Positions 54,002 through 64,000 of a stretch of 64,000 nt of DNA are shown here, in pieces (position 1 is the stretch's first letter; each line of letters starts with the position of its first letter). The DNA is from Luteitalea pratensis (GTDB lineage: Bacteria; Acidobacteriota; Vicinamibacteria; Vicinamibacterales; Vicinamibacteraceae). The stretch spans positions 62,001 to 126,000 of the forward strand of contig NZ_CP015136.1 of assembly GCF_001618865.1 (NCBI RefSeq). Reading direction: 5' to 3'. Below the pieces are notes generated by a model that worked only from the letters and a program-made list of their open reading frames with translations, did not search any database and had not been told where the DNA came from. A program made the translations under genes and the position numbers.

Positions 54002-54113
54002 TGCGACCTCCCACCAGAACTCTAGCGCTTCCGCCGACGCCGTTGCCCGCCGTCGTCACCGATGAGTACGCGGTGCGTCCCTCACCGCCGGATCTCTCCC
54101 CCTGGTCATCCCG

Positions 54114-54143
54114 TTGCCGACCGGCGCCGTTTGTGCCTACAAT
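54114..54143 (+). promoter_or_regulatory. Probable promoter of the CBS-nuo block
   Basis: A -35 box TTGCCG (54114-54119) and a -10 box TACAAT (54138-54143) are 18 bases apart. A start near 54150 gives a leader of about 40 bases to the GTG at 54191. The same -35 and spacing occur upstream of tRNA-Gln. Confidence 0.55.
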
Positions 54144-54190
54144 GCCGCCCTCAATCAAGCAATCGACACACCTCATCAAGGGGGTCGCTG

Positions 54191-54640
54191 GTGAAACTCC
54201 ACGACTCGGTTGACCGCATCCTCAGGCAAAAGGGATCCGGGGTGTATTCCATCAGTCCCGACGAGACCGTCTACAAGGCTCTCGAGACGCTGGAAGAAAA
54301 GAACGTCGGAGCCCTCCTCGTCATGTCCGGCGACACGCTCGTCGGGCTTCTCTCCGAGCGCGACTACGTTCGCAAGGTCAAGCTCAAGGGCCATTCCTCG
54401 ACAGAGCTGAAGGTCAGCGAAATCATGTCGACCCCGGTTGTCAGCGTCACATCGACGGCGACCGTGGATGAGTGCATGCACCGCATGACGAACAAGCGCT
54501 GCCGCCACCTCCCCGTCGTCGACGACGGGAAGGTCGTCGGTGTGCTCTCGATTGGCGATCTCGTCAACTGGATCATGTCGGTTCAGGACGCCACGATCCA
54601 TCAGCTCGAGGACTACATTTGCGGCAAGTACCCCGCCTAG
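54191..54640 (+). CDS. CBS-domain pair protein at the head of the nuo block
   Basis: A 149-residue protein from GTG 54191 (gggg box upstream), consisting of a tandem CBS pair: residues 10-65 (VYSISPDETVYKALETLEEK, GALLVMSGDTLVGLLSERDY) and 75-130 (MSTPVVSVTSTATVDECMHR, RHLPVVDDGKVVGVLSIGDL). Such Bateman modules bind adenine nucleotides or SAM. It ends five bases before nuoJ, so it is very likely co-transcribed with the complex I genes. A role as an energy-charge sensor for the complex is an inference from position only. Confidence 0.92.
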   Translation: MKLHDSVDRILRQKGSGVYSISPDETVYKALETLEEKNVGALLVMSGDTLVGLLSERDYVRKVKLKGHSSTELKVSEIMSTPVVSVTSTATVDECMHRMTNKRCRHLPVVDDGKVVGVLSIGDLVNWIMSVQDATIHQLEDYICGKYPA

Positions 54641-54644
54641 TCCG

Positions 54645-55163
54645 ATGGGAACCCTTGCGGGACAGGCGGCCTTCTATTACCTAGCGGCAGCCAGCATCGC
54701 CAGCGCGGCGCTGGCTGTCACACGCAGCAATCCGATCCACAGCATGCTGTGGGTCCTCGCCCTGTTCCTGCACGTCGCAGGGATATTCGTGCTCGTCGGC
54801 GCCCAGTTCCTGGCGGCGGTGCAGGTCATCGTCTACGCGGGCGCCATCCTCGTCTTCTATCTGTTCTTCGTCATGCTGCTCGATCTGCCGAGCGAAACGG
54901 CGGCGCGCCGTTTCGGTGCCCATTGGCCGCTGGCCGCCGCAGCCGGAGCGGTCTTTGCCTTCCTCCTGATGCGCTGGTACCAACCGGGACTGGCGACACC
55001 GACGCCGGCCGCGACTGTTGACGCTGCGCCGATGCCGCACGTTGCGGCCGTCGGAATGCTGCTCTTCACCGAGTTTGCGCTGCCCTTCGAAGTCGTATCG
55101 CTGGTGCTCCTGGTGGCCATCCTCGGTGCTGTCGTCGTCGCCCGAAGAAAGACAGCGTCCTGA
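54645..55163 (+). CDS. nuoJ: NADH-quinone oxidoreductase subunit J
   Basis: A 172-residue membrane subunit from ATG 54645 with five helices. The conserved NPIHSMLWVLALFLHVAGIF, FLAAVQVIVYAGAILVFYLF (with the pi-bulge helix) and the final VVSLVLLVAILGAVVVARR are diagnostic. NuoJ links the quinone-binding arm to the antiporter chain. The stop overlaps the nuoK start by one base (TGATG). Confidence 0.95.
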   Translation: MGTLAGQAAFYYLAAASIASAALAVTRSNPIHSMLWVLALFLHVAGIFVLVGAQFLAAVQVIVYAGAILVFYLFFVMLLDLPSETAARRFGAHWPLAAAAGAVFAFLLMRWYQPGLATPTPAATVDAAPMPHVAAVGMLLFTEFALPFEVVSLVLLVAILGAVVVARRKTAS

Positions 55164-55465
55164 TGGTGACCACGGGCGCGTTGCTGGGGCTCAGCGCGAT
55201 CCTCTTCGGGATTGGCCTGGTCGGCTTCCTCAGCCGGCGCAACATCATCCTCATGCTCGTCTCCCTCGAGATCATGCTCAATGCCGTCAACGTCAATTTC
55301 GCGGCTTTCGGTCATCACCTGCTCGAGGAGCGCGGCCAGATCCTCGCGCTCTTTGTCATCGCCGTGGCGGCGGCCGAAGCGGCGATCGGCCTGGGACTGG
55401 TCATCGCGCTGGCTCGCAACAGGCCCGATGTCAGGATCGAGCACCTGACCGAGTTGAAGTGGTGA
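55163..55465 (+). CDS. nuoK: NADH-quinone oxidoreductase subunit K
   Basis: A 100-residue, three-helix subunit. NIILMLVSLEIMLNAVNVNF carries the conserved membrane glutamate of the first channel, and FVIAVAAAEAAIGLGLVIAL the second. It forms part of the proton channel between NuoJ and the antiporter-like subunits. Its stop overlaps the next gene's GTG start. Confidence 0.96.
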   Translation: MVTTGALLGLSAILFGIGLVGFLSRRNIILMLVSLEIMLNAVNVNFAAFGHHLLEERGQILALFVIAVAAAEAAIGLGLVIALARNRPDVRIEHLTELKW

Positions 55466-56922
55466 GTACGCCACTCCTGGCGATTCTCGTGGCCGCGGCA
55501 GCCGCCCTGCTTGTCGTCGCCACTGGAGAACGACGACGCAATGTGAGGGAGTTCTGGTCGGTGGCGGCGGGAGTCCTGCAGTTCGGGCTGGTCGCGTCGA
55601 TGGCTCCGCAAGTGATTGCGGGGGCTACTCCGGAAGGTGTGCTCGTCCAGCTTGTTCCCGGCGTGACGATCGCATTTCGTGCCGATGGCCTGGGCCTGTT
55701 GTTTGCCCTGGGCGCATCGCTTCTCTGGATAGCCACGTCGTTCTACTCGATCGGCTACGTGCGCACGCTCGGTGAGCACGCGCAAACTCGCTACTTCGCC
55801 TGCTTCGCACTGGCGCTTTCGGCGACGATGGGCGTGGCATTTGCCGCCAACCTGTTCACCCTGTTCCTGTTCTATGAAGCACTGACGCTGGCCACATATG
55901 CACTCGTCGCACACAAGGAGACACCGGAAGCCAGGGCGGGCGCCCGCAAGTACGTCGTCTATCTGTTGGGGGCCGCCAAGCTGTTACTGCTGCCCGCGAT
56001 CGTCCTGACCTATCAAGTGGCAGGGACCCTCGACTTCCGGCCCGGAGGCATCCTGCCGGCCGGCCAGGTAGCTGCTCACCCGACGCTGCTTGCGATCGTC
56101 TTCGCGCTGTTCATGTTCGGCCTCGCAAAGAACGCTGTCATGCCGCTGCATGGCTGGCTGCCGGCAGCGATGGTAGCGCCGACGCCGGTCAGCGCGCTCC
56201 TGCACGCGGTGGCCGTCGTCAAGACCGGAGTCTTCGCCACGCTTCGCGTCTTCCTGTTCGTCTTCGGCACGGAATCGATGCGACAGCTCGGCGTCGATAC
56301 GATTGCCATGGGTTTCGCTTCTGCGACGATTCTCCTGGCCTCGGTCCTGGCGCTCTATCAGGACAACCTGAAGGCCAGGCTCGCGTTCTCGACGATCAGC
56401 CAGCTCTCCTACATCGTTCTGGGAGGAGCGCTGCTCACCACCAGCGGGATCGTCGGCGGCATCGCCCACATCACCAATCACGCGGTGTCGAAGATCACGC
56501 TCTTCTTCTGCGCCGGCTCCATCTACGCGTCGGCTCACAAGACCGACGTCAGCCAGATGTCGGGGCTCGCCAGGAAGATGCCGTGGACGATGGCGGCGTT
56601 TGCCATCGCCTCGTTGAGCCTGGTCGGCATTCCTCCGTCGTCCGGCTTCATCTCGAAGTGGTATCTCGCGGTGGGATCGGTCGAGCGCGGAAACCCGTGG
56701 GTGCTGGCCGTGCTGCTGGTCAGCTCGCTGCTGAACGCGGCTTATCTCGGTCCGGTCGTGTACAAGGCGTACTTCGAGGTGCCGACAGCGAGCCACGATC
56801 ACGATCACATTCGCGAAATGCCGTTGATGGTGGTCCCGATGGTGTTCAGTGCCGTCCTCAGCCTGCTGCTGGGCATGTATCCCGATCCGGTGCTGAAGTT
56901 GGCGGGAATGGTGAAGCCGTGA
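55462..56922 (+). CDS. Antiporter-like subunit (MrpD/NuoM type) in complex I cluster
   Basis: A 486-residue protein from GTG 55462 (overlap of 4 with nuoK). It is a proton-translocating antiporter-like subunit with about 14 helices. The TM5 glutamate is Glu139 in LFYEALTLATYAL. The TM7-8 region FGLAKNAVMPLHGWLPAAMV keeps the lysine and histidine, and HAVAVVKTGVF has the next lysine. LSLVGIPPSSGFISKW lies near the C-terminus. It is nearer to MrpD/HyfB-type than to NuoL, lacking the long C-terminal arm. This is an extra module not found in standard nuo operons. Confidence 0.85.
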   Translation: MSTPLLAILVAAAAALLVVATGERRRNVREFWSVAAGVLQFGLVASMAPQVIAGATPEGVLVQLVPGVTIAFRADGLGLLFALGASLLWIATSFYSIGYVRTLGEHAQTRYFACFALALSATMGVAFAANLFTLFLFYEALTLATYALVAHKETPEARAGARKYVVYLLGAAKLLLLPAIVLTYQVAGTLDFRPGGILPAGQVAAHPTLLAIVFALFMFGLAKNAVMPLHGWLPAAMVAPTPVSALLHAVAVVKTGVFATLRVFLFVFGTESMRQLGVDTIAMGFASATILLASVLALYQDNLKARLAFSTISQLSYIVLGGALLTTSGIVGGIAHITNHAVSKITLFFCAGSIYASAHKTDVSQMSGLARKMPWTMAAFAIASLSLVGIPPSSGFISKWYLAVGSVERGNPWVLAVLLVSSLLNAAYLGPVVYKAYFEVPTASHDHDHIREMPLMVVPMVFSAVLSLLLGMYPDPVLKLAGMVKP

Positions 56923-57140
56923 AGCTCAAGCGCGCGTTCTACGCATCGTTGGTGGTGCTCGCCCTTGCCGAGGCGATTGCCCCGTGGATCCTCTACGACG
57001 AGCACGCTCACTTCGCCTTCGAGGACTGGCCCGCGTTCGGCTCCGTCTATGGCTTCTTCTCCTGTGTCGCGATCATCCTCGTCTCGAAGTTCCTTGGGAA
57101 GCACTGGCTGATGCGCCCGGAGGACTCCTATGAGTCCTGA
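56919..57140 (+). CDS. Small two-helix membrane protein between the antiporter-like genes
   Basis: A 73-residue protein from GTG 56919, overlapping the previous stop (GTGA) and the next start by 11 bases. Helix 1 is ASLVVLALAEAIAPWIL. A conserved-looking loop (YDEHAHFAFEDWPAFGSVYG) precedes helix 2 (FFSCVAIILVSKFLGKHWLM) and a charged tail. Similar small proteins occur beside Mrp-like antiporter genes in other bacteria as I recall, but the function is not established. Tight packing suggests a structural subunit of the complex. Confidence 0.8.
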   Translation: MKLKRAFYASLVVLALAEAIAPWILYDEHAHFAFEDWPAFGSVYGFFSCVAIILVSKFLGKHWLMRPEDSYES

Positions 57141-58896
57141 GTGGATTCATCCAGGCCTCGTGCTGATTGCCGGCGCGTGGCTCATCCCGCTGCTCGGGGG
57201 CACGGCCAAGCGCGTCGCCATGATCCTGGTGCCGGCCGTTGCGCTGATCGACTGCCTGCTCCTGCAGCCGGGAACCTATGGCGTGGTGCACTTTGTCGGG
57301 CAGGATCTGACGTTCGGCCGTGTCGATCGATTGAGCCTCGTGTTCGCGTACGTATTCGCGCTGATGACCCTCGTGGGCATGGTGTACGCGCTTCACGTGA
57401 ACGACGACGCGCAGCACGTGTCGGCGCTGACCTACGCGGGTAGCGCGCTCGGAATCACATTCGCGGGAGACTTCCTGTCGCTCTTCCTGTTCTGGGAACT
57501 GGCGGCGGTATCGGCGGTGATGCTGGTATGGCTGCGCCGCGAACGCACCGCGGTGGCAGCGGGGTTCCGGTATCTGCTCGTCCACGTGTTCGGCGGGTTG
57601 TGCCTGCTCGGGGGGATCGTCCTCTACTGGTCGGATTCCGGATCGCTCGCGTTCGTTGACATGTCGGCCCACGCGGGGACTACCGCGTTTGCGCTGATCC
57701 TCGTCGCCTTCCTCCTCAATGCAGCGGTGCCGCCGCTGGGCGCCTGGCTGCCTGACGCCTATCCAGAGGCCACCGTCACGGGCGCCGTCTTTCTGACGGC
57801 GTTCACCACGAAGTCGGCGGTCTATGCCCTGGTGCGGGGATTCGCGGGCACCGAGCTCCTGGTGTGGTCGGGCGCCGCGATGGCGGTCTATGGCGTCGTG
57901 TACGCCGTGCTCGAGAACGATGCCAGGAGGCTGCTCGCGTACCACATCATCAGCCAGGTGGGCTACATGGTGTGCGGCGTCGGCCTTGGCACGGAGATGG
58001 CGCTGAACGGCACGACCGCACACGCGTTCTCGCACATCCTCTACAAGGCACTGCTCTTCATGGGCGCTGGTGCGGTGCTGGAGGTCACGGGCCGGAGAAA
58101 ACTGAGCGAGATGGGCGGCCTTCACAAGACCATGCCCGTGACGCTCGGTCTCTACATGATTGGCGCGTTCGCCATTTCAGCCGTGCCGTTGTTCAGCGGC
58201 TTCGTCAGCAAGTCGATGGTCGTGTCCGCGGCCGGCGAATCCCACAGGGCGGCGATCTTCCTGACGCTGACGCTGGCCTCGGCGGGGACGTTCCTGCATA
58301 CGGGACTCAAGCTTCCGTATTACATGTTCTTCGGTCGTGATCGCGGTCTCGCTGCTCACGAGCCGCCGTCGAACATGCTCGTCGCGATGGGCCTGGCCGC
58401 GGCCGCCTGCATCATCATTGGCGTCTTTCCGGGCCTGCTGTACGCGCAACTGCCGTACCACGTCGATTACGCGCCCTACACGGTACGCCACGTGCTGTCG
58501 ACGCTCGGCGTGCTCAGCTTTACGGCGCTCGGGTTCTTCGCCCTGCTGTCCCACCTCGACCCAGAGCCCACGATCAGTCTCGACACGGACTGGTTCTACC
58601 GGCGGGGTCTGTCGACGGCAATGGCTCATAGCTATTCCGCGCTCGTGCGCGTGGAGAACGCTCTCGCGCTCGTCTATGAGGGTTTCGTTGGGCGCCTGCT
58701 GCTGGGTACCGCAGCCCGGCTGCGTCAGGTCGACGCGTCTGTCGTGGACCGCGCCGCCGAGGGCATCGGCAACATTACCGACGCCGTGAGCCAGAGCCTG
58801 AAGCTGGTGGTAACCGGTCATGCTCAGCATCACGGGCTCATGATGGCGGCCGGCGTGCTGATCGCCATGGCCATTGCCCTGTTCGCACGACAATGA
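57130..58896 (+). CDS. Second antiporter-like subunit with C-terminal extension
   Basis: A 588-residue membrane protein. The TM5 glutamate is Glu123 in FLFWELAAVSAVML. In TM7 the usual lysine is replaced by Asn in AFLLNAAVPPLGAWLPDAYP, while the TM8 lysine remains (FTTKSAVYALV). GAVPLFSGFVSKS-like motifs (AVPLFSGFVSKSMVV) follow. Beyond the barrel, residues 470-588 form an amphipathic stretch (DWFYRRGLSTAMAHSYSALV) and a last helix, reminiscent of the NuoL lateral arm. It may take the place of NuoL, which is otherwise absent from the visible cluster. Confidence 0.85.
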   Translation: MSPEWIHPGLVLIAGAWLIPLLGGTAKRVAMILVPAVALIDCLLLQPGTYGVVHFVGQDLTFGRVDRLSLVFAYVFALMTLVGMVYALHVNDDAQHVSALTYAGSALGITFAGDFLSLFLFWELAAVSAVMLVWLRRERTAVAAGFRYLLVHVFGGLCLLGGIVLYWSDSGSLAFVDMSAHAGTTAFALILVAFLLNAAVPPLGAWLPDAYPEATVTGAVFLTAFTTKSAVYALVRGFAGTELLVWSGAAMAVYGVVYAVLENDARRLLAYHIISQVGYMVCGVGLGTEMALNGTTAHAFSHILYKALLFMGAGAVLEVTGRRKLSEMGGLHKTMPVTLGLYMIGAFAISAVPLFSGFVSKSMVVSAAGESHRAAIFLTLTLASAGTFLHTGLKLPYYMFFGRDRGLAAHEPPSNMLVAMGLAAAACIIIGVFPGLLYAQLPYHVDYAPYTVRHVLSTLGVLSFTALGFFALLSHLDPEPTISLDTDWFYRRGLSTAMAHSYSALVRVENALALVYEGFVGRLLLGTAARLRQVDASVVDRAAEGIGNITDAVSQSLKLVVTGHAQHHGLMMAAGVLIAMAIALFARQ

Positions 58897-60371
58897 CGTA
58901 TCCAGTCCTTACGGCATCGACGTTCCTGCCGTCAGTAGGGGCGGCTCTCATCTTCCTGTGCCCCGTGCGACTGGCGCGCTGGATCGCGCTCGTGACGACG
59001 ATCGCCACGCTGGCGGTGTCGGCACCGCTCTACCTGTCGTTCGACAAGACCTCGAGCGCTCTCCAGTTCGTCGAGAGCCGGCCATGGATCCCGTCCTGGA
59101 ACGTGGCCTACGGCATGGGTGTCGACGGCATCAGCCTGCCGTTCATCGGCCTCTCGGCATTTGTCAGCGTGCTGTGCGTCGCCGTGTCGTGGAATGCCAT
59201 CCAGGTGCGGGTGTGGGAGTTCTACGCGACGTTGCTCGTTGCCGAGACGGCGATGATCGGATTGTTTGCGGCGACGAACTTCTTTCTCTTCTACATGTTC
59301 TGGGAACTCATGGTCGTTCCCATGTTCCTGCTCATCGGCGTGTGGGGAGGGACGGGCCGCGTTCACGCCGCGCTGAAGTTCCTCATCTTCACGCTGGCGG
59401 GGAGCCTGTTGATGCTCGTCGGTCTCATCTCGCTGCTGCACACGAGCGGCACGCTCGACTTCGAGGCGCTGGCGAGGACCGACCTCGGGCTGACACAACA
59501 GGCGTGGCTCTTCGTCGCGTTCTCGGCCGCCTTCGCGGTAAAGGTGCCGATGTTCCCCGTGCATACATGGCTTCCGGATGCGCACACCGAGGCACCGACT
59601 GCCGGGAGCGTGATCCTGGCCGGGATCCTGTTGAAGATGGGCGGCTACGGGTTGCTGCGGATTGCGTTGCCGATCCTCTCTGATGCCGTCCGCCTGTTCC
59701 TGACGCCGATGCTGGTGTTATCAGGGGTCGCGATCGTCTACGGCGCGTACGTGACGCTGGCCCAGACCGATATCAAGCGCCTCATTGCGTACTCGAGCAT
59801 CAGTCACATGGGCTTTGTGACGCTCGGAATCTTCTCGCTCGACCGCAGCGGCATCGAGGGCGCCATCCTGCAGATGATCAATCACGGGATCATCACCGGC
59901 GCTCTCTTCCTGTGCGTGGGAATGATCTACGAGCGTACTCACACCCGCGACGTCGCGAAGTACGGGGGACTGTTCAAGGTCGCGCCAATCTACTCGACGT
60001 TCCTCGCGATCTTCTGTCTCGCCGCTGCAGGCACGCCAGGGCTCAATTCATTCGTCGGGGAATTTCTCATCATTCTCGGGGCGATCAGGGTCTGGCCGTT
60101 GATCGGCGCGATGGCAGTGTGGGGTGTCGCGCTGGGCGCTGCCTATGTGCTGTGGCTGTTCTACCGGATGGTCATCGGCGAGCTCGGTCCAGGTGTGCAG
60201 GGAGTGCGACTGGACCTCAACATCCGCGAAGTCGTGACCCTCGCGCCGTTGGTCGCGCTGGCTGTGGTCATCGGCCTCTACCCCGAGTCCGTGCTCGGTG
60301 TCCTTCGCGGGTCGGTCACACAGTTGCTGGCAGACGTGGCCTCGAGCGGCGGAATTGCGGGGCGGCCGTGA
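58893..60371 (+). CDS. nuoM: NADH-quinone oxidoreductase subunit M
   Basis: A 492-residue subunit starting at ATG 58893 (4-base overlap). Key features: TM5 Glu138 in MFWELMVVPMFLLIGVWGG, the TM7 region AFAVKVPMFPVHTWLPDAHT with Lys and His, LLKMGGYGLLR with the TM8 Lys, and SSISHMGFVTLG. All residues for proton transfer are present and the length is standard. It ends in a GTGA overlap with nuoN. Confidence 0.96.
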   Translation: MTYPVLTASTFLPSVGAALIFLCPVRLARWIALVTTIATLAVSAPLYLSFDKTSSALQFVESRPWIPSWNVAYGMGVDGISLPFIGLSAFVSVLCVAVSWNAIQVRVWEFYATLLVAETAMIGLFAATNFFLFYMFWELMVVPMFLLIGVWGGTGRVHAALKFLIFTLAGSLLMLVGLISLLHTSGTLDFEALARTDLGLTQQAWLFVAFSAAFAVKVPMFPVHTWLPDAHTEAPTAGSVILAGILLKMGGYGLLRIALPILSDAVRLFLTPMLVLSGVAIVYGAYVTLAQTDIKRLIAYSSISHMGFVTLGIFSLDRSGIEGAILQMINHGIITGALFLCVGMIYERTHTRDVAKYGGLFKVAPIYSTFLAIFCLAAAGTPGLNSFVGEFLIILGAIRVWPLIGAMAVWGVALGAAYVLWLFYRMVIGELGPGVQGVRLDLNIREVVTLAPLVALAVVIGLYPESVLGVLRGSVTQLLADVASSGGIAGRP

Positions 60372-61783: not shown

Positions 61784-61854
61784 ACGGCCCTCGGACCTCG
61801 ACCGAGGCGTAGAATGATGGGGTCTATTCCCATCCGAAAGCGGGGCCTTTGCTG

Positions 61855-62208
61855 ATGAGTGAATACGTCGGCATCGTGGTCACTTTTGTGCTGGCGGGGG
61901 CGCTCGTCGCCGCGTTCATCGCCCTGGCATCGACGCTCGGCCCCAGGATGCCGTCCGCCGCGAAGTCCGTGCCTTTCGAGTGCGGACAGGACCCCCTCTC
62001 GCTGCCGACAGGCCACCTGTCGATCAAGTTCTACCTGACCGCGATTCTCTTCATCCTGTTCGATGTCGAGCTGGTCTTCCTGTACCCGTTGGCGGTCGTG
62101 TTCCGCGATCTCGGGATGTGGGCACTGGCCGAGGTCGTCATCTTCCTGGGCGTGCTCATGGCCGGGTTCTTCTACGCCTGGGACAACGGCGCCCTGGAAT
62201 GGCAATAG
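61855..62208 (+). CDS. nuoA: NADH-quinone oxidoreductase subunit A
   Basis: A 117-residue three-helix subunit from ATG 61855 (a TTG six bases earlier is in frame). [11 protein letters not shown] holds the conserved flexible loop with its cysteine, and [20 protein letters not shown] the acidic helix. A weak -10-like TAGAAT lies at 61810-61815 without a good -35 box, so this may be read through from nuoN or from a second promoter. Placing nuoA after nuoN is unusual. Confidence 0.96.
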
Positions 62209-62222
62209 AAAGGTAACGAGAG

Positions 62223-62738
62223 ATGTCTGGCGAAGGCGGATTCGTGACGAGCCGTCTGGACGAGGCCATCGGCTGGGCCCGGAAGTTTTCGATCTTCCAG
62301 TACCCCTTCGTGACGGCGTGCTGTGGCATGGAGTACATGGCCACGGCCTGCGCTCACTACGATGTCGATCGCTTTGGCGCCGGCCTGCCGCGATTCTCGC
62401 CGCGCCAGGCCGACGTGCTCTTCGTGGTCGGCACCATCAGTCACAAGATGGCGCCGATCCTGAAGCGCATCTACGACCAGTTGGCCGAACCCAAATGGGT
62501 CGTCTCGTTCGGCGTGTGTACCTGCACGGGCGGCTTCTACGACAACTACGCCACCGTCATGGGCATCGACACGATCATTCCCGTCGACGTCTACATCCCG
62601 GGCTGTCCTCCACGACCCGAGTACGTGCTGGATGGCCTGCTCAAGCTGCAGGCACGCATCGCCGAGCAACATGCCACCGGCCAGCGCCCCGTGCCGGAGC
62701 TCAGGCCGGCGATGCAGAGGCCGGTGTTCGAGCCATGA
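62223..62738 (+). CDS. nuoB: NADH-quinone oxidoreductase subunit B
   Basis: A 171-residue subunit. The N2 [4Fe-4S] ligands have the canonical spacing: Cys33-Cys34 in TACCGMEYM, Cys99 in FGVCTCTGG and Cys128 in IPGCPPRPE. It passes electrons to quinone at the membrane interface. A ribosome-binding site (gaaaggtaacgag region) precedes ATG 62223. The stop overlaps the nuoC ATG (ATGA). Confidence 0.97.
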
Positions 62739-63316
62739 GCGCCGTGTCACTGATTCAGGCGGTGCGCGATCGTTTCCCCGCCGCCGTGACGGCGTCGCAT
62801 TCGTTTCGCGGCGATGCCACGGTGATCGTCGCCAGAGCCGCCCTGCTCGAGGTCATGCGATCACTCAAGGAGGACGCGGTCTTCCAGATGAATGTGCTGA
62901 TGGACCTGACGGCCGTCGACTTCTCCGCCTTCGGAAAGAAGCCGTCACGCGCATTCTTTTCCTCGTCCGGTGTGGCGGTGCGTCCGTCATCCGGAATTCC
63001 CACGCTCGACCCGTGGCCCGGTCCGCCTGCGGATGCCCGCTTCGCCGTCGTCTATCACTTCTTCTCGTTGCCGCTGAAGCATCGGCTGCGCGTGGAAGTG
63101 CTCCTGCAGGAGGACGATCCGGAAGTCGATTCCGTGACGCCGCTGTGGGCAGGTGCCGACTGGCTCGAGCGCGAGGTCTGGGACATGTTCGGCATCCGTT
63201 TCCGTGGGCATCCCAACCTGAAGCGCATCCTCATGTACGACGAGTTCGTCGGCCATCCGCTCCGGAAGGACTACCCGGTCGACAAGCGGCAGCCCCTCAT
63301 CGGCCCGGTGAACTGA
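62735..63316 (+). CDS. nuoC: NADH-quinone oxidoreductase subunit C
   Basis: A 193-residue peripheral-arm subunit from ATG 62735. [13 protein letters not shown] opens the domain, [20 protein letters not shown] is the core sheet and [20 protein letters not shown] with [12 protein letters not shown] is the C-terminal signature. It carries a somewhat long insert around residues 75-105 ([20 protein letters not shown]). The stop overlaps nuoD by one base, so NuoC and NuoD are separate, not fused. Confidence 0.95.
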
Positions 63317-64000
63317 TGAACACGCGCGAGATGCTGCTGAATGTCGGGCCCGCGCATCCCGCCATGCACGGGATCATCAGGATCGTCACGACGCTCGACG
63401 GGGAGCGGATCGTCGACATCGACGTCGAGATCGGCTACCTGCATCGCGGCTTCGAGAAGATGGCCGAGACGGTCGACTACAACGGCGTCATGCCGTACAC
63501 CGACCGCCTCAACTACGTCTCGCCGCTGATCAACAACATGGGCTACTGCATGGCCGTGGAGAAGCTGCTGGGGATGTCGGTCCCGGATCGCTGCCACTAC
63601 ATCCGCGTGATCATGTCGGAGATCTCGCGGATTTCGGATCACCTCACGTGCGTGGGCGCCAGCGCGATGGAGCTGGGCGCGTTCACGGTGTTTCTCTACA
63701 TGATCAAGGCCCGCGAGTACTTGTGGGACCTGGTGGAAATGGTGACCGGGGCGCGCCTCACGGTGACGTACTGTCGCGTCGGCGGAGTGAAGGGGGATCT
63801 TCCCGCGGGTTTCGACGAGGCGTGCGCGAACGCGTTCAAGGAAACGCGCCTGGTGATCAAGGAGTCGGACACGCTGCTGACGCGCAATCGCATCTTCGTC
63901 GATCGCATGTCGGGGACAGGAAAGATCTCGGCCGAGGATGCGATCTCGCACGGCATCACCGGACCGTTCCTGCGCGGCTGCGGCGTCGCCTATGACGTAC
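63316..64000 (+). CDS. nuoD: NADH-quinone oxidoreductase subunit D, 3' end outside window
   Basis: 228 codons are visible from ATG 63316 (TGATG overlap with nuoC). NVGPAHPAMHGIIRIV carries the quinone-site histidine, EIGYLHRGFEKMAET and NNMGYCMAVEKLLGM follow, and the segment ELGAFTVFLYMIKAREYLWD is typical of the 49-kDa subunit. The rest, including the C-terminal part, lies beyond the window. Confidence 0.96.
   Translation, partial: MNTREMLLNVGPAHPAMHGIIRIVTTLDGERIVDIDVEIGYLHRGFEKMAETVDYNGVMPYTDRLNYVSPLINNMGYCMAVEKLLGMSVPDRCHYIRVIMSEISRISDHLTCVGASAMELGAFTVFLYMIKAREYLWDLVEMVTGARLTVTYCRVGGVKGDLPAGFDEACANAFKETRLVIKESDTLLTRNRIFVDRMSGTGKISAEDAISHGITGPFLRGCGVAYDV

Follow-up and report, generated by a model that had tools for sequence, protein, structure and literature searches.

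A putative green-type complex I of Luteitalea pratensis with two MrpD-like subunits and a 73-residue protein at the place of NuoL

Gene content of the cluster

A gene cluster for complex I, the NADH:quinone oxidoreductase, was analysed in a stretch of 64,000 nucleotides from the acidobacterium Luteitalea pratensis (the window; genome positions 62,001-126,000 of a single contig of 7,480,314 bases, genome position being window position plus 62000). Its genes lie in the order J-K-D1-s73-D2-M-N-A-B-C-D-EF-G-H-I, with E and F fused. D1 and D2 denote two antiporter-like subunits and s73 the small protein encoded between them; all other genes from window position 54648 to genome position 131728 are nuo genes. 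The cluster contains a complete complex I set and runs past the edge of the window to end at genome position 131,728. Neighbouring genes mostly overlap or sit a few bases apart, the widest gap being ~65 bases, before A. The features are listed below in window coordinates unless a genome position is given (TM, transmembrane helix).

54648..55163, + strand: nuoJ, 171 residues; Pfam Oxidored_q3, E 1.1e-35
55163..55465, + strand: nuoK, 100 residues; open reading frame, 51% match to a frame in the canonical operon of the same genome
55462..56922, + strand: D1, antiporter-like subunit of 486 residues, MrpD-like (NCBIfam PRK08375.1 type); Proton_antipo_M, E 5.8e-55
56919..57140, + strand: s73, 73 residues; found in all 75 loci that have D1 plus D2
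57130..58896, + strand: D2, antiporter-like subunit of 588 residues (NCBIfam PRK12668), carrier of a C-terminal arm; NF009310, 719.8 bits, cut-off 564
57718..57720, + strand: codon of D2 Asn197, at the position of the TM7 lysine; Asn in 81 of 81 complex-I-type D2 rows
58705..58884, + strand: D2 tail of NuoL type, residues ~526-585, covering the last part of the lateral helix plus TM16; recognised by profiles in all 80 complete rows
58893..60371, + strand: nuoM, 492 residues; TIGR01972, 583.7 bits
60368..61783, + strand: nuoN, 471 residues; 44% match to a frame in the canonical operon
61849..62208, + strand: nuoA, 119 residues; open reading frame and best-match gene labelling
62223..62738, + strand: nuoB, 171 residues; open reading frame and best-match gene labelling
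62735..63316, + strand: nuoC, 193 residues; open reading frame and best-match gene labelling
63316..64000, + strand: first part of nuoD, which ends at genome position 126638; one of the two Complex1_49kDa matches of the genome
Genome 126635-128473 (L008: 10635-12470): nuoEF fusion, 612 residues; E and F domains in one chain
Genome 128461-130044: nuoG; NuoG family match
Genome 130041-131132: nuoH; open reading frame
Genome 131132-131728: nuoI; NuoI family match

In agreement with the original prediction, which was made from the letters of the window, the order J, K, 486-, 73- and 588-residue protein, M, N and A to D was recovered from the open reading frames and from Pfam and NCBIfam searches on J, D1, s73, D2 and M. 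The domain searches placed Oxidored_q3 in J, Proton_antipo_M in D1, D2 and M, and a 2Fe-2S thioredoxin-like domain together with Complex1_51K in one EF chain. D1 scored 654.7 bits against NF006236, slightly below the cut-off of 663, and the NuoG of the cluster 385.3 bits, under the curated cut-off of 470. The start of the block had been set at 54191 and needs correction, as NuoJ starts at ~54648 and 54191-54640 belongs to a CBS-domain protein. A search for the remaining nuo genes past 64 kb, suggested at the time, located the EF fusion, G, H and I there. The predicted hybrid complex I with four antiporter-like subunits is upheld, with a complete nuo set in one cluster.

Relation to green complex I and to other known systems

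Judged by its gene content, the cluster very probably encodes a complete NADH:quinone oxidoreductase of the green complex I type, because all testable published features were found (two MrpD-like subunits, the gene order and the second operon). The arrangement is already known in print under this name, and the present locus is another member. In the published green complex I of rhizobia, NuoL is replaced by two MrpD-like subunits (PMC9040806); its genes are rearranged, lie beside a standard operon and are upregulated in symbiosis (PMC7415380). The Luteitalea cluster likewise has two MrpD-like subunits for NuoL, an order rearranged relative to nuoA-N and a standard operon besides, but differs in its fused NuoE-NuoF, its acidobacterial host and a D2 that is ~57-61% identical to that of rhizobial loci.

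Complex_I_3 of Ca. Manganitrophaceae also has two MrpD-like subunits, which are said to be closest to those of the rhizobial green complex I; it carries two NuoM, and its D2 arm is extended by an insertion of 26 residues (PMC9040806). The present cluster has one M and an arm span of 73 residues, as in most relatives. The 2M complex I of Nitrospira (Chadwick et al. 2018, via PMC9040806) shares the number of four antiporter-like subunits, but its fourth is a second NuoM and NuoL is kept. Assignment to the 2M type was rejected, the cluster having one M and no NuoL.

A scan of GTDB genomes gave 357 relatives of D2; the 80 best were retained, and the genes of their loci were labelled by best match. 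By record title, these 80 come from Acidobacteria, Planctomycetota, Nitrospirota, deltaproteobacterial lineages, one Acidimicrobiia metagenome-assembled genome, some metagenome-assembled genomes of Rhodospirillaceae and many rhizobia. K-D1-s73-D2-M is their constant core wherever the contig reaches. Within the range covered by each locus, Acidobacteria, Planctomycetes and rhizobia show J K D1 s73 D2 M N A B C D E F G, an order that the locus of Rhizobium freirei PRF 81 (L069) follows all the way from J to G. In three Nitrospirota loci (L027, L030, L035) the genes are arranged as D E F G H I J K D1 s73 D2 M N. The arrangement in several deltaproteobacterial loci (e.g. L062, L064, L071) is A B C D H I J K D1 s73 D2 M N; E and F were not matched there, and G-like matches lie only outside. 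E and F are fused in all four acidobacterial, six planctomycete and one Acidimicrobiia loci that show these genes, and separate in the rhizobial and Nitrospirota loci.

Among plasmids, 383 records had a D2 match at E 1e-5, a count expected to include other antiporters, the commonest sources being Sinorhizobium (75) and Rhizobium (63); 100 of the records cover at least 80% of D2 at a single place. A NuoL model was searched against ten genomes with loci of this type and exceeded its curated cut-off in seven. In the other three (the genomes of L035, L067 and L029) the green type may thus be the only complex I, as it may be in some lineages, subject to gaps in draft genomes.

D1 and D2 compared with NuoL, MrpA and MrpD

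The original prediction had stated that the operon contains no canonical NuoL. For the operon this is correct, as follows from family scores, tree position and residues of helix VIII and TM8. With the NuoL model TIGR01974, D1 scored 186.7 and D2 133.7 bits, both under the curated cut-off of 407.5. A tree of 86 antiporter rows was built with D1, D2, M and N from 13 of the 80 loci and the window, in which the NuoL, NuoM and NuoN rows were labelled by best BLAST match and the Mrp and Hyf rows by NCBIfam. By the Shimodaira-Hasegawa-like approximate likelihood ratio test (SH-aLRT), D1 and D2 each form one clade (100 each), apart from NuoL (100), MrpA (96) and MrpD (99). The helix VIII residues His, Thr, Met and Val, described as specific to NuoL and MrpA (PMC4938563), are all present in 19 of 19 NuoL rows; D1 has two of them (His, Val) and D2 none. 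Conversely, a TM8 lysine is common to all rows of D1, D2, MrpA and MrpD, while the 19 NuoL carry Thr, Ala or Val there.

The deeper branching is less clear. The phylogeny proposed with the original prediction separated D1 and D2 as clades, and beyond this the approximately unbiased (AU) tests reject none of four groupings: D1 with D2 (p 0.654), D2 with MrpD (0.625), D2 with NuoL (0.355) and D1 with NuoL (0.259). The constrained trees for D1 with D2 and for D2 with MrpD were even slightly likelier than the free quick tree. These results weigh against a firm derivation of the two subunits from Mrp antiporters, and "MrpD-like" is used here as a name, the trees neither supporting nor rejecting any deep grouping. 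In the 86-row tree M of the green-type loci falls into more than one group (three changes, all forced by starred branches) and is mixed with canonical NuoM; the same holds for N (two changes, one forced), mixed with canonical NuoN. Hence the complexes that host the cassette D1-s73-D2 may differ in descent, which complicates a single origin, and the cassette may have moved between complex I lineages.

Structure comparison gave 6u8y_H as the best solved-chain match of D1; for D2, MrpD 7qru_D came first and 6u8y_X second. The predicted fold of D2 matched the NuoL-type chain 8e9g_L (Z 44.0) and the chain 6u8y_X of MBS (Z 42.4), and since MrpD- and NuoM-type chains scored nearly the same (Z 41-43), the fold cannot tell the subunit type. 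MBS of Pyrococcus furiosus resembles the present arrangement in its adjacent antiporter subunits MbsH and MbsH', of which the second has a lateral helix that holds the two together; unlike it, MBS has another redox module, and at TM7 it carries Glu in MbsH but Lys in MbsH' (PMC7684303).

Channel residues

The prediction of Asn in place of the TM7 lysine of the 588-residue subunit proved right. The residue is Asn197, and its position is unambiguous, nine residues before a conserved Trp, where D1, M and N carry Lys. The Asn is invariant in the 81 complex-I-type D2 rows, and the TM7 residue was no part of the scan patterns that seeded these loci. In the joint alignment Lys occupies this position in 19 of 19 NuoL, three of three MrpA and three of three MrpD, as well as in 75 of 75 D1 rows.

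The other charged residues are kept. D2 has Glu123, Lys228, Lys306 and Lys361 in 81 of 81 rows, and D1 has the TM5 residue Glu139 in all 74 rows with a letter there and Lys223, Lys254, Lys344 and Lys399 in 75 of 75 rows each. The Glu and Lys residues of M and N (or Glu in TM12 of M) are kept in every row with a letter there. Without the TM7 lysine in D2, the subunit count is not simply convertible to protons. For NuoL, antiporter complementation at 80 mM NaCl was alike with a K229A variant and with the unmutated subunit, while severe effects on complex I are mentioned by the authors (PMC4938563).

The small protein s73

In every one of the 75 loci holding both D1 and D2, the window included, s73 is located between the two genes. 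Gly45, Ser48, Cys49, Ser56, Lys57, Gly60 and Tyr71 are invariant in 79 rows. The family searches gave no NCBIfam match and no Pfam match near the cut-off. A weak structure model (predicted local distance difference test 68, predicted template modelling score 0.40) shows two predicted helices, 2-24 and 40-64. An s73-like frame also adjoins D2 in all 20 further acidobacterial loci examined (23-66 bits). We regard s73 as a constant small partner of D2, and it would be a subunit absent from the descriptions in the accessible passages of the green-type literature.

D1, s73 and D2 in acidobacterial Mrp clusters

The nearest relative found is D1-s73-D2 in Mrp clusters of other Acidobacteriota. Extra genes in Mrp operons have been described before: Group 3 (irregular) Mrp antiporters have the order mrpCD1D2EFGAB (PMC5703873), and in the Mrp locus of Ca. 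Nitrospira alkalitolerans two genes after mrpD resemble NuoM and NuoL (PMC7784846). Set beside the present cluster by these descriptions, both have additional NuoM/L- or MrpD-like genes. Mrp antiporters differ from it in having no redox subunits, and the Mrp-side D2 examined here in Acidobacteriota have no NuoL-type tail.

A D2 family model matched above the cut-off in 33 of 297 Acidobacteriota genomes, and 20 of the 32 besides that of the window were examined; among the others, G082 equals the D2 of the window in score. Gene presence was judged by BLAST within 8-15 kb in all loci other than L148, in which D1-s73-D2, followed gene by gene, closes the Mrp operon. In 15 of the 20 loci, D1-s73-D2 are accompanied by genes that match MrpE, F, B-type, C, D and MbhD/E-type (MrpG is missing in one). 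Three loci (L139, L154, L156) have D2 and an adjacent s73-like frame without D1 or small Mrp genes in 15 kb, and their D2 carries Lys in TM7; in L143 and L157, which lie on a short contig or at a contig start, no small Mrp gene was matched. The TM7 position of the 20 Mrp-side D2 is Lys in ten and Asn in ten.

Trees of complex-I against Mrp-side copies were calculated for D2 (26 of the 80 loci and the window against 20) and for D1 (24 and the window against 17). The complex-I copies form one clade for D2 (100/99) and one for D1 (99/97). When drawn from the midpoint, both adjoin an identical set of nine loci, all with Asn; eight of these have Mrp genes, and the ninth is L157 on its cut contig. 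In a tree with outgroups and ten of the 20 loci, the complex-I copies fall inside the Mrp-side copies, beside one of their two groups; its row L157_opMrpD is mislabelled and identical to the D2 of L157. Given this rooting, the simplest account, which we hold with moderate confidence, would be that an Mrp antiporter lost the TM7 lysine before the cassette entered complex I. The modest SH-aLRT values for the nesting, only 88 for D1 and 66 for D2, speak against it.

The C-terminal arm of D2

The predicted C-terminal arm of the 588-residue subunit is borne out by a match to a NuoL-arm profile, and with its NuoL-like arm the subunit can stand in for NuoL, as had been suggested; D1, with 486 residues, has no arm. 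The last 60 residues of many complex-I D2 resemble NuoL tails (D..VVDG.VNG....LRR.QTG.V..YA), those of Acidobacteria and Planctomycetes less so. A profile of 19 NuoL tails matched 81 of 82 rows of complex-I D2 (the window counted twice), with a median of 46.7 and a lowest score of 23.6 bits; of the controls, none of the 20 Mrp-side D2 exceeded 8.8 bits and no letter-shuffled tail exceeded 3.5 bits. The C-terminally cut NuoL L168 is among the 19 tails and was omitted from the identity, arm-profile and tail-tree work.

Arm profiles split D2 in all 80 complete rows (rows under 560 residues are omitted from the 80-row counts), with the Mrp-D2 arm first and the NuoL arm last. The Mrp-D2 match has a median score of 82.6 and ends at median residue 538, or at 508-535 in seven of the ten printed rows. 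The NuoL-arm match has a median of 41.9 bits (range 17.3-65.3) and starts at median residue 526; with 25.1 bits the D2 of the window is the weakest of the ten printed rows. The change-over is placed between about residues 510 and 538. Only matches that began within the last 200 residues were kept, a filter that leaves out the MrpA arm, and the search was repeated without it. A profile scores high by construction on the class from which it was built, NuoL in one case and Mrp-side D2 in the other. Across classes, the NuoL-arm profile matched none of the 20 Mrp-side D2 (none above -0.7 bits), and the Mrp-arm profile gave none of 18 NuoL more than 3.1 bits. Identity between complex-I and Mrp-side D2 falls from ~60% in the core to 34% in the tail. 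The AlphaFold model has low confidence in the arm, with block means of 41-58 from residue 471 to 570.

By these profiles D2 is probably an Mrp core spliced to a NuoL tail. In the open-licence PMC text searched, no description of such a NuoL-tail chimera or of the TM7 Asn was found; most subscription papers, including the 2016 green complex I paper, lie outside this search. Several observations speak against a splice. The change-over is not sharp, the Mrp-arm match running on to residue 548, 578 or 581 in three of the ten printed rows, and two HyfB match the NuoL-arm profile weakly (8.4 and 11.2 bits). Pairwise identity fails to show a chimera: the tail of the window D2 is 33% identical to the best NuoL tail and its core 34% (with a permissive aligner), the medians over the 80 rows are 42% for tails and 34% for cores, and the median of Mrp-side tails is 35%, one of them being at 47%. 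The classes are separated well by the profiles only, and poorly by the identity comparison of core and tail.

Alternatively, the tail could be ancestral to D2, NuoL and MrpA, in which case there was no recombination: complex-I copies would have kept it, as they must contact the rest of the arm, and the Mrp copies would have lost the likeness. MrpA and HyfB are armed as well, and a weak likeness to the NuoL tail is seen in one of three MrpA (13.8 bits) and in both HyfB (9.5 and 11.4 bits). The identity of D2 tails lies little above that of Mrp-side tails, and a tail-only tree mixes NuoL and D2 tails without resolution, its 58 columns being too few. However, the MrpA core groups with NuoL (SH-aLRT 95 and 97), yet the MrpA tail match is far weaker than that of D2, whose core does not group there; the other two MrpA fall below 0 bits on the NuoL-tail profile, and in seven of the ten printed rows the Mrp-type arm profile stops fitting D2 near the change-over. 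On balance we regard an ancestral tail as unlikely.

The arm spans 54 residues in three measurable ordinary NuoL and 78 in two long-armed NuoL; for D2, counting by hand from comparable anchors gives ~74. In one Desulfuromonadales locus (L067) the D2 arm is ~26 residues longer (span 99 against 73-74) and has a second VDG.VNG-like repeat, with one NuoM in the operon; its length recalls the 26-residue insertion of Ca. Manganitrophaceae (PMC9040806). Arm lengthening as a strict ruler was dropped, given this longer arm beside a single M and the two long-armed NuoL.

A second complex I in the genome and neighbouring genes

Seven genes of the genome contain the antiporter domain, four in this cluster and three in a canonical L-M-N set at 5.842-5.847 Mb, so the absence of a canonical NuoL, correct for the operon, does not extend to the genome, and a genome without NuoL was rejected. 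The canonical operon lies on the minus strand at ~5.842-5.853 Mb and comprises A-F, H and J-N, with an ordinary NuoL of 702 residues. Family-model searches of the genome found no NuoG or NuoI within it; a further NuoG-like gene lies at 7.32 Mb (399.9 bits, below the cut-off of 470) and a further NuoI at 3.68 Mb, and there are two copies of NuoD. The gene set of the genome thus suffices for two complexes I. That the canonical operon is forced to borrow G and I from the present cluster was rejected, given the further NuoG-like and NuoI genes. As a refutation, the original prediction had named an ordinary nuoL and a complete second operon elsewhere, combined with a block that encodes a stand-alone antiporter. 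The outcome is divided: such a nuoL and another complex I do exist, but the block is no stand-alone antiporter, as EF, G, H and I follow it.

Upstream of the cluster lies one further gene:

54062..54640, + strand: CBS-pair protein, 192 residues from the first start; Pfam CBS, E 5.8e-28, two stretches

It lies outside the complex I subunit set and is a possible regulator; upstream of nuoJ it may serve as a nucleotide sensor for this complex. A relative precedes J in several acidobacterial loci, e.g. L012, L013, L014, L018 and L019. After nuoI, at genome 132294-135943, two gene starts resemble by eye a TIR-type protein and a large P-loop protein.

Proposed function and origin

In the enzyme as we picture it, NADH would be oxidised by the fused NuoEF and NuoG, and electrons would pass via B, C, D and I to quinone. 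The membrane arm would follow the order H-A-J-K-N-M and then D1 and D2 in place of NuoL, a spatial order inferred from gene order and homology. What the sequences show is the gene content, the residues, the profile matches and the trees, whereas assembly, pumping and the direction of exchange are inferred as well. H, A, J and K would pass the coupling on to N, M and D1, whose channel residues are complete, and D2 would follow at the tip. D1 is taken as a pump, all of its checked charged residues being kept. Without the TM7 lysine, D2 may pump differently or not at all; conceivable roles are those of a cap, of a pump with other wiring or of a path for cations. We picture it as a distal cap and arm carrier, tied back by its arm. 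With an Mrp-type body and ~60 NuoL-like residues at its end, an Mrp end module could dock on the arm of complex I, and the loss of the TM7 lysine probably predates this joining.

A bolder reading, to which we give a probability of roughly 0.45, is that the cassette came from the end of an Mrp antiporter with the TM7 lysine already lost, that D2 was spliced within the lateral helix to a NuoL tail and replaced NuoL, and that the cassette was perhaps later passed between complex I lineages. Three of the four antiporter-like subunits would then have full channel residues, and s73 would be an unrecognised core subunit both here and in the Mrp relatives. It is possible, if somewhat doubtful, that all four subunits pump instead, with five protons per NADH as the result, a proposal already published for the rhizobial form; the published reading is 5 to 6 ions (legend of a figure in PMC9040806). 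The TM5 Glu and TM8 Lys are kept in D1, D2, M and N, with Lys306 and Lys361 in D2 besides, and the TM7 position can vary, as MbsH of MBS has Glu there and its authors still propose a pump (PMC7684303). The residue in D2, however, is the uncharged Asn, without exception among its rows, against Lys in all NuoL and D1 rows compared. From the sequences, four and five protons per NADH are both possible.

A stand-alone Mrp-like antiporter that merely lies beside nuo genes is very improbable, even though related D1-s73-D2 genes stand in the Mrp clusters of most of the acidobacterial loci examined. The block sits between K and M with overlapping genes and nuo genes on both sides, the same position recurs in loci of Pseudomonadota, Planctomycetota, Nitrospirota and Thermodesulfobacteriota, and the complex-I copies of D1 and D2 form clades of their own. 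An Mrp antiporter operon would hold MrpE, F, G, B and C and no redox subunits, which is not the content of this cluster; the stand-alone antiporter was rejected on the redox subunits EF, G, H and I that follow.

How the number of antiporter-like subunits is linked to proton stoichiometry is a live question for complex I, and a natural four-subunit enzyme, in which one subunit is without a residue found in all compared NuoL, MrpA and MrpD rows, is a ready experiment. The TM7 Asn, s73 and the apparent splice are worth following. If the tail of D2 is truly that of NuoL, modules of Mrp antiporters and complex I would be exchangeable by a break inside the lateral helix, which would also alter the length of the arm.

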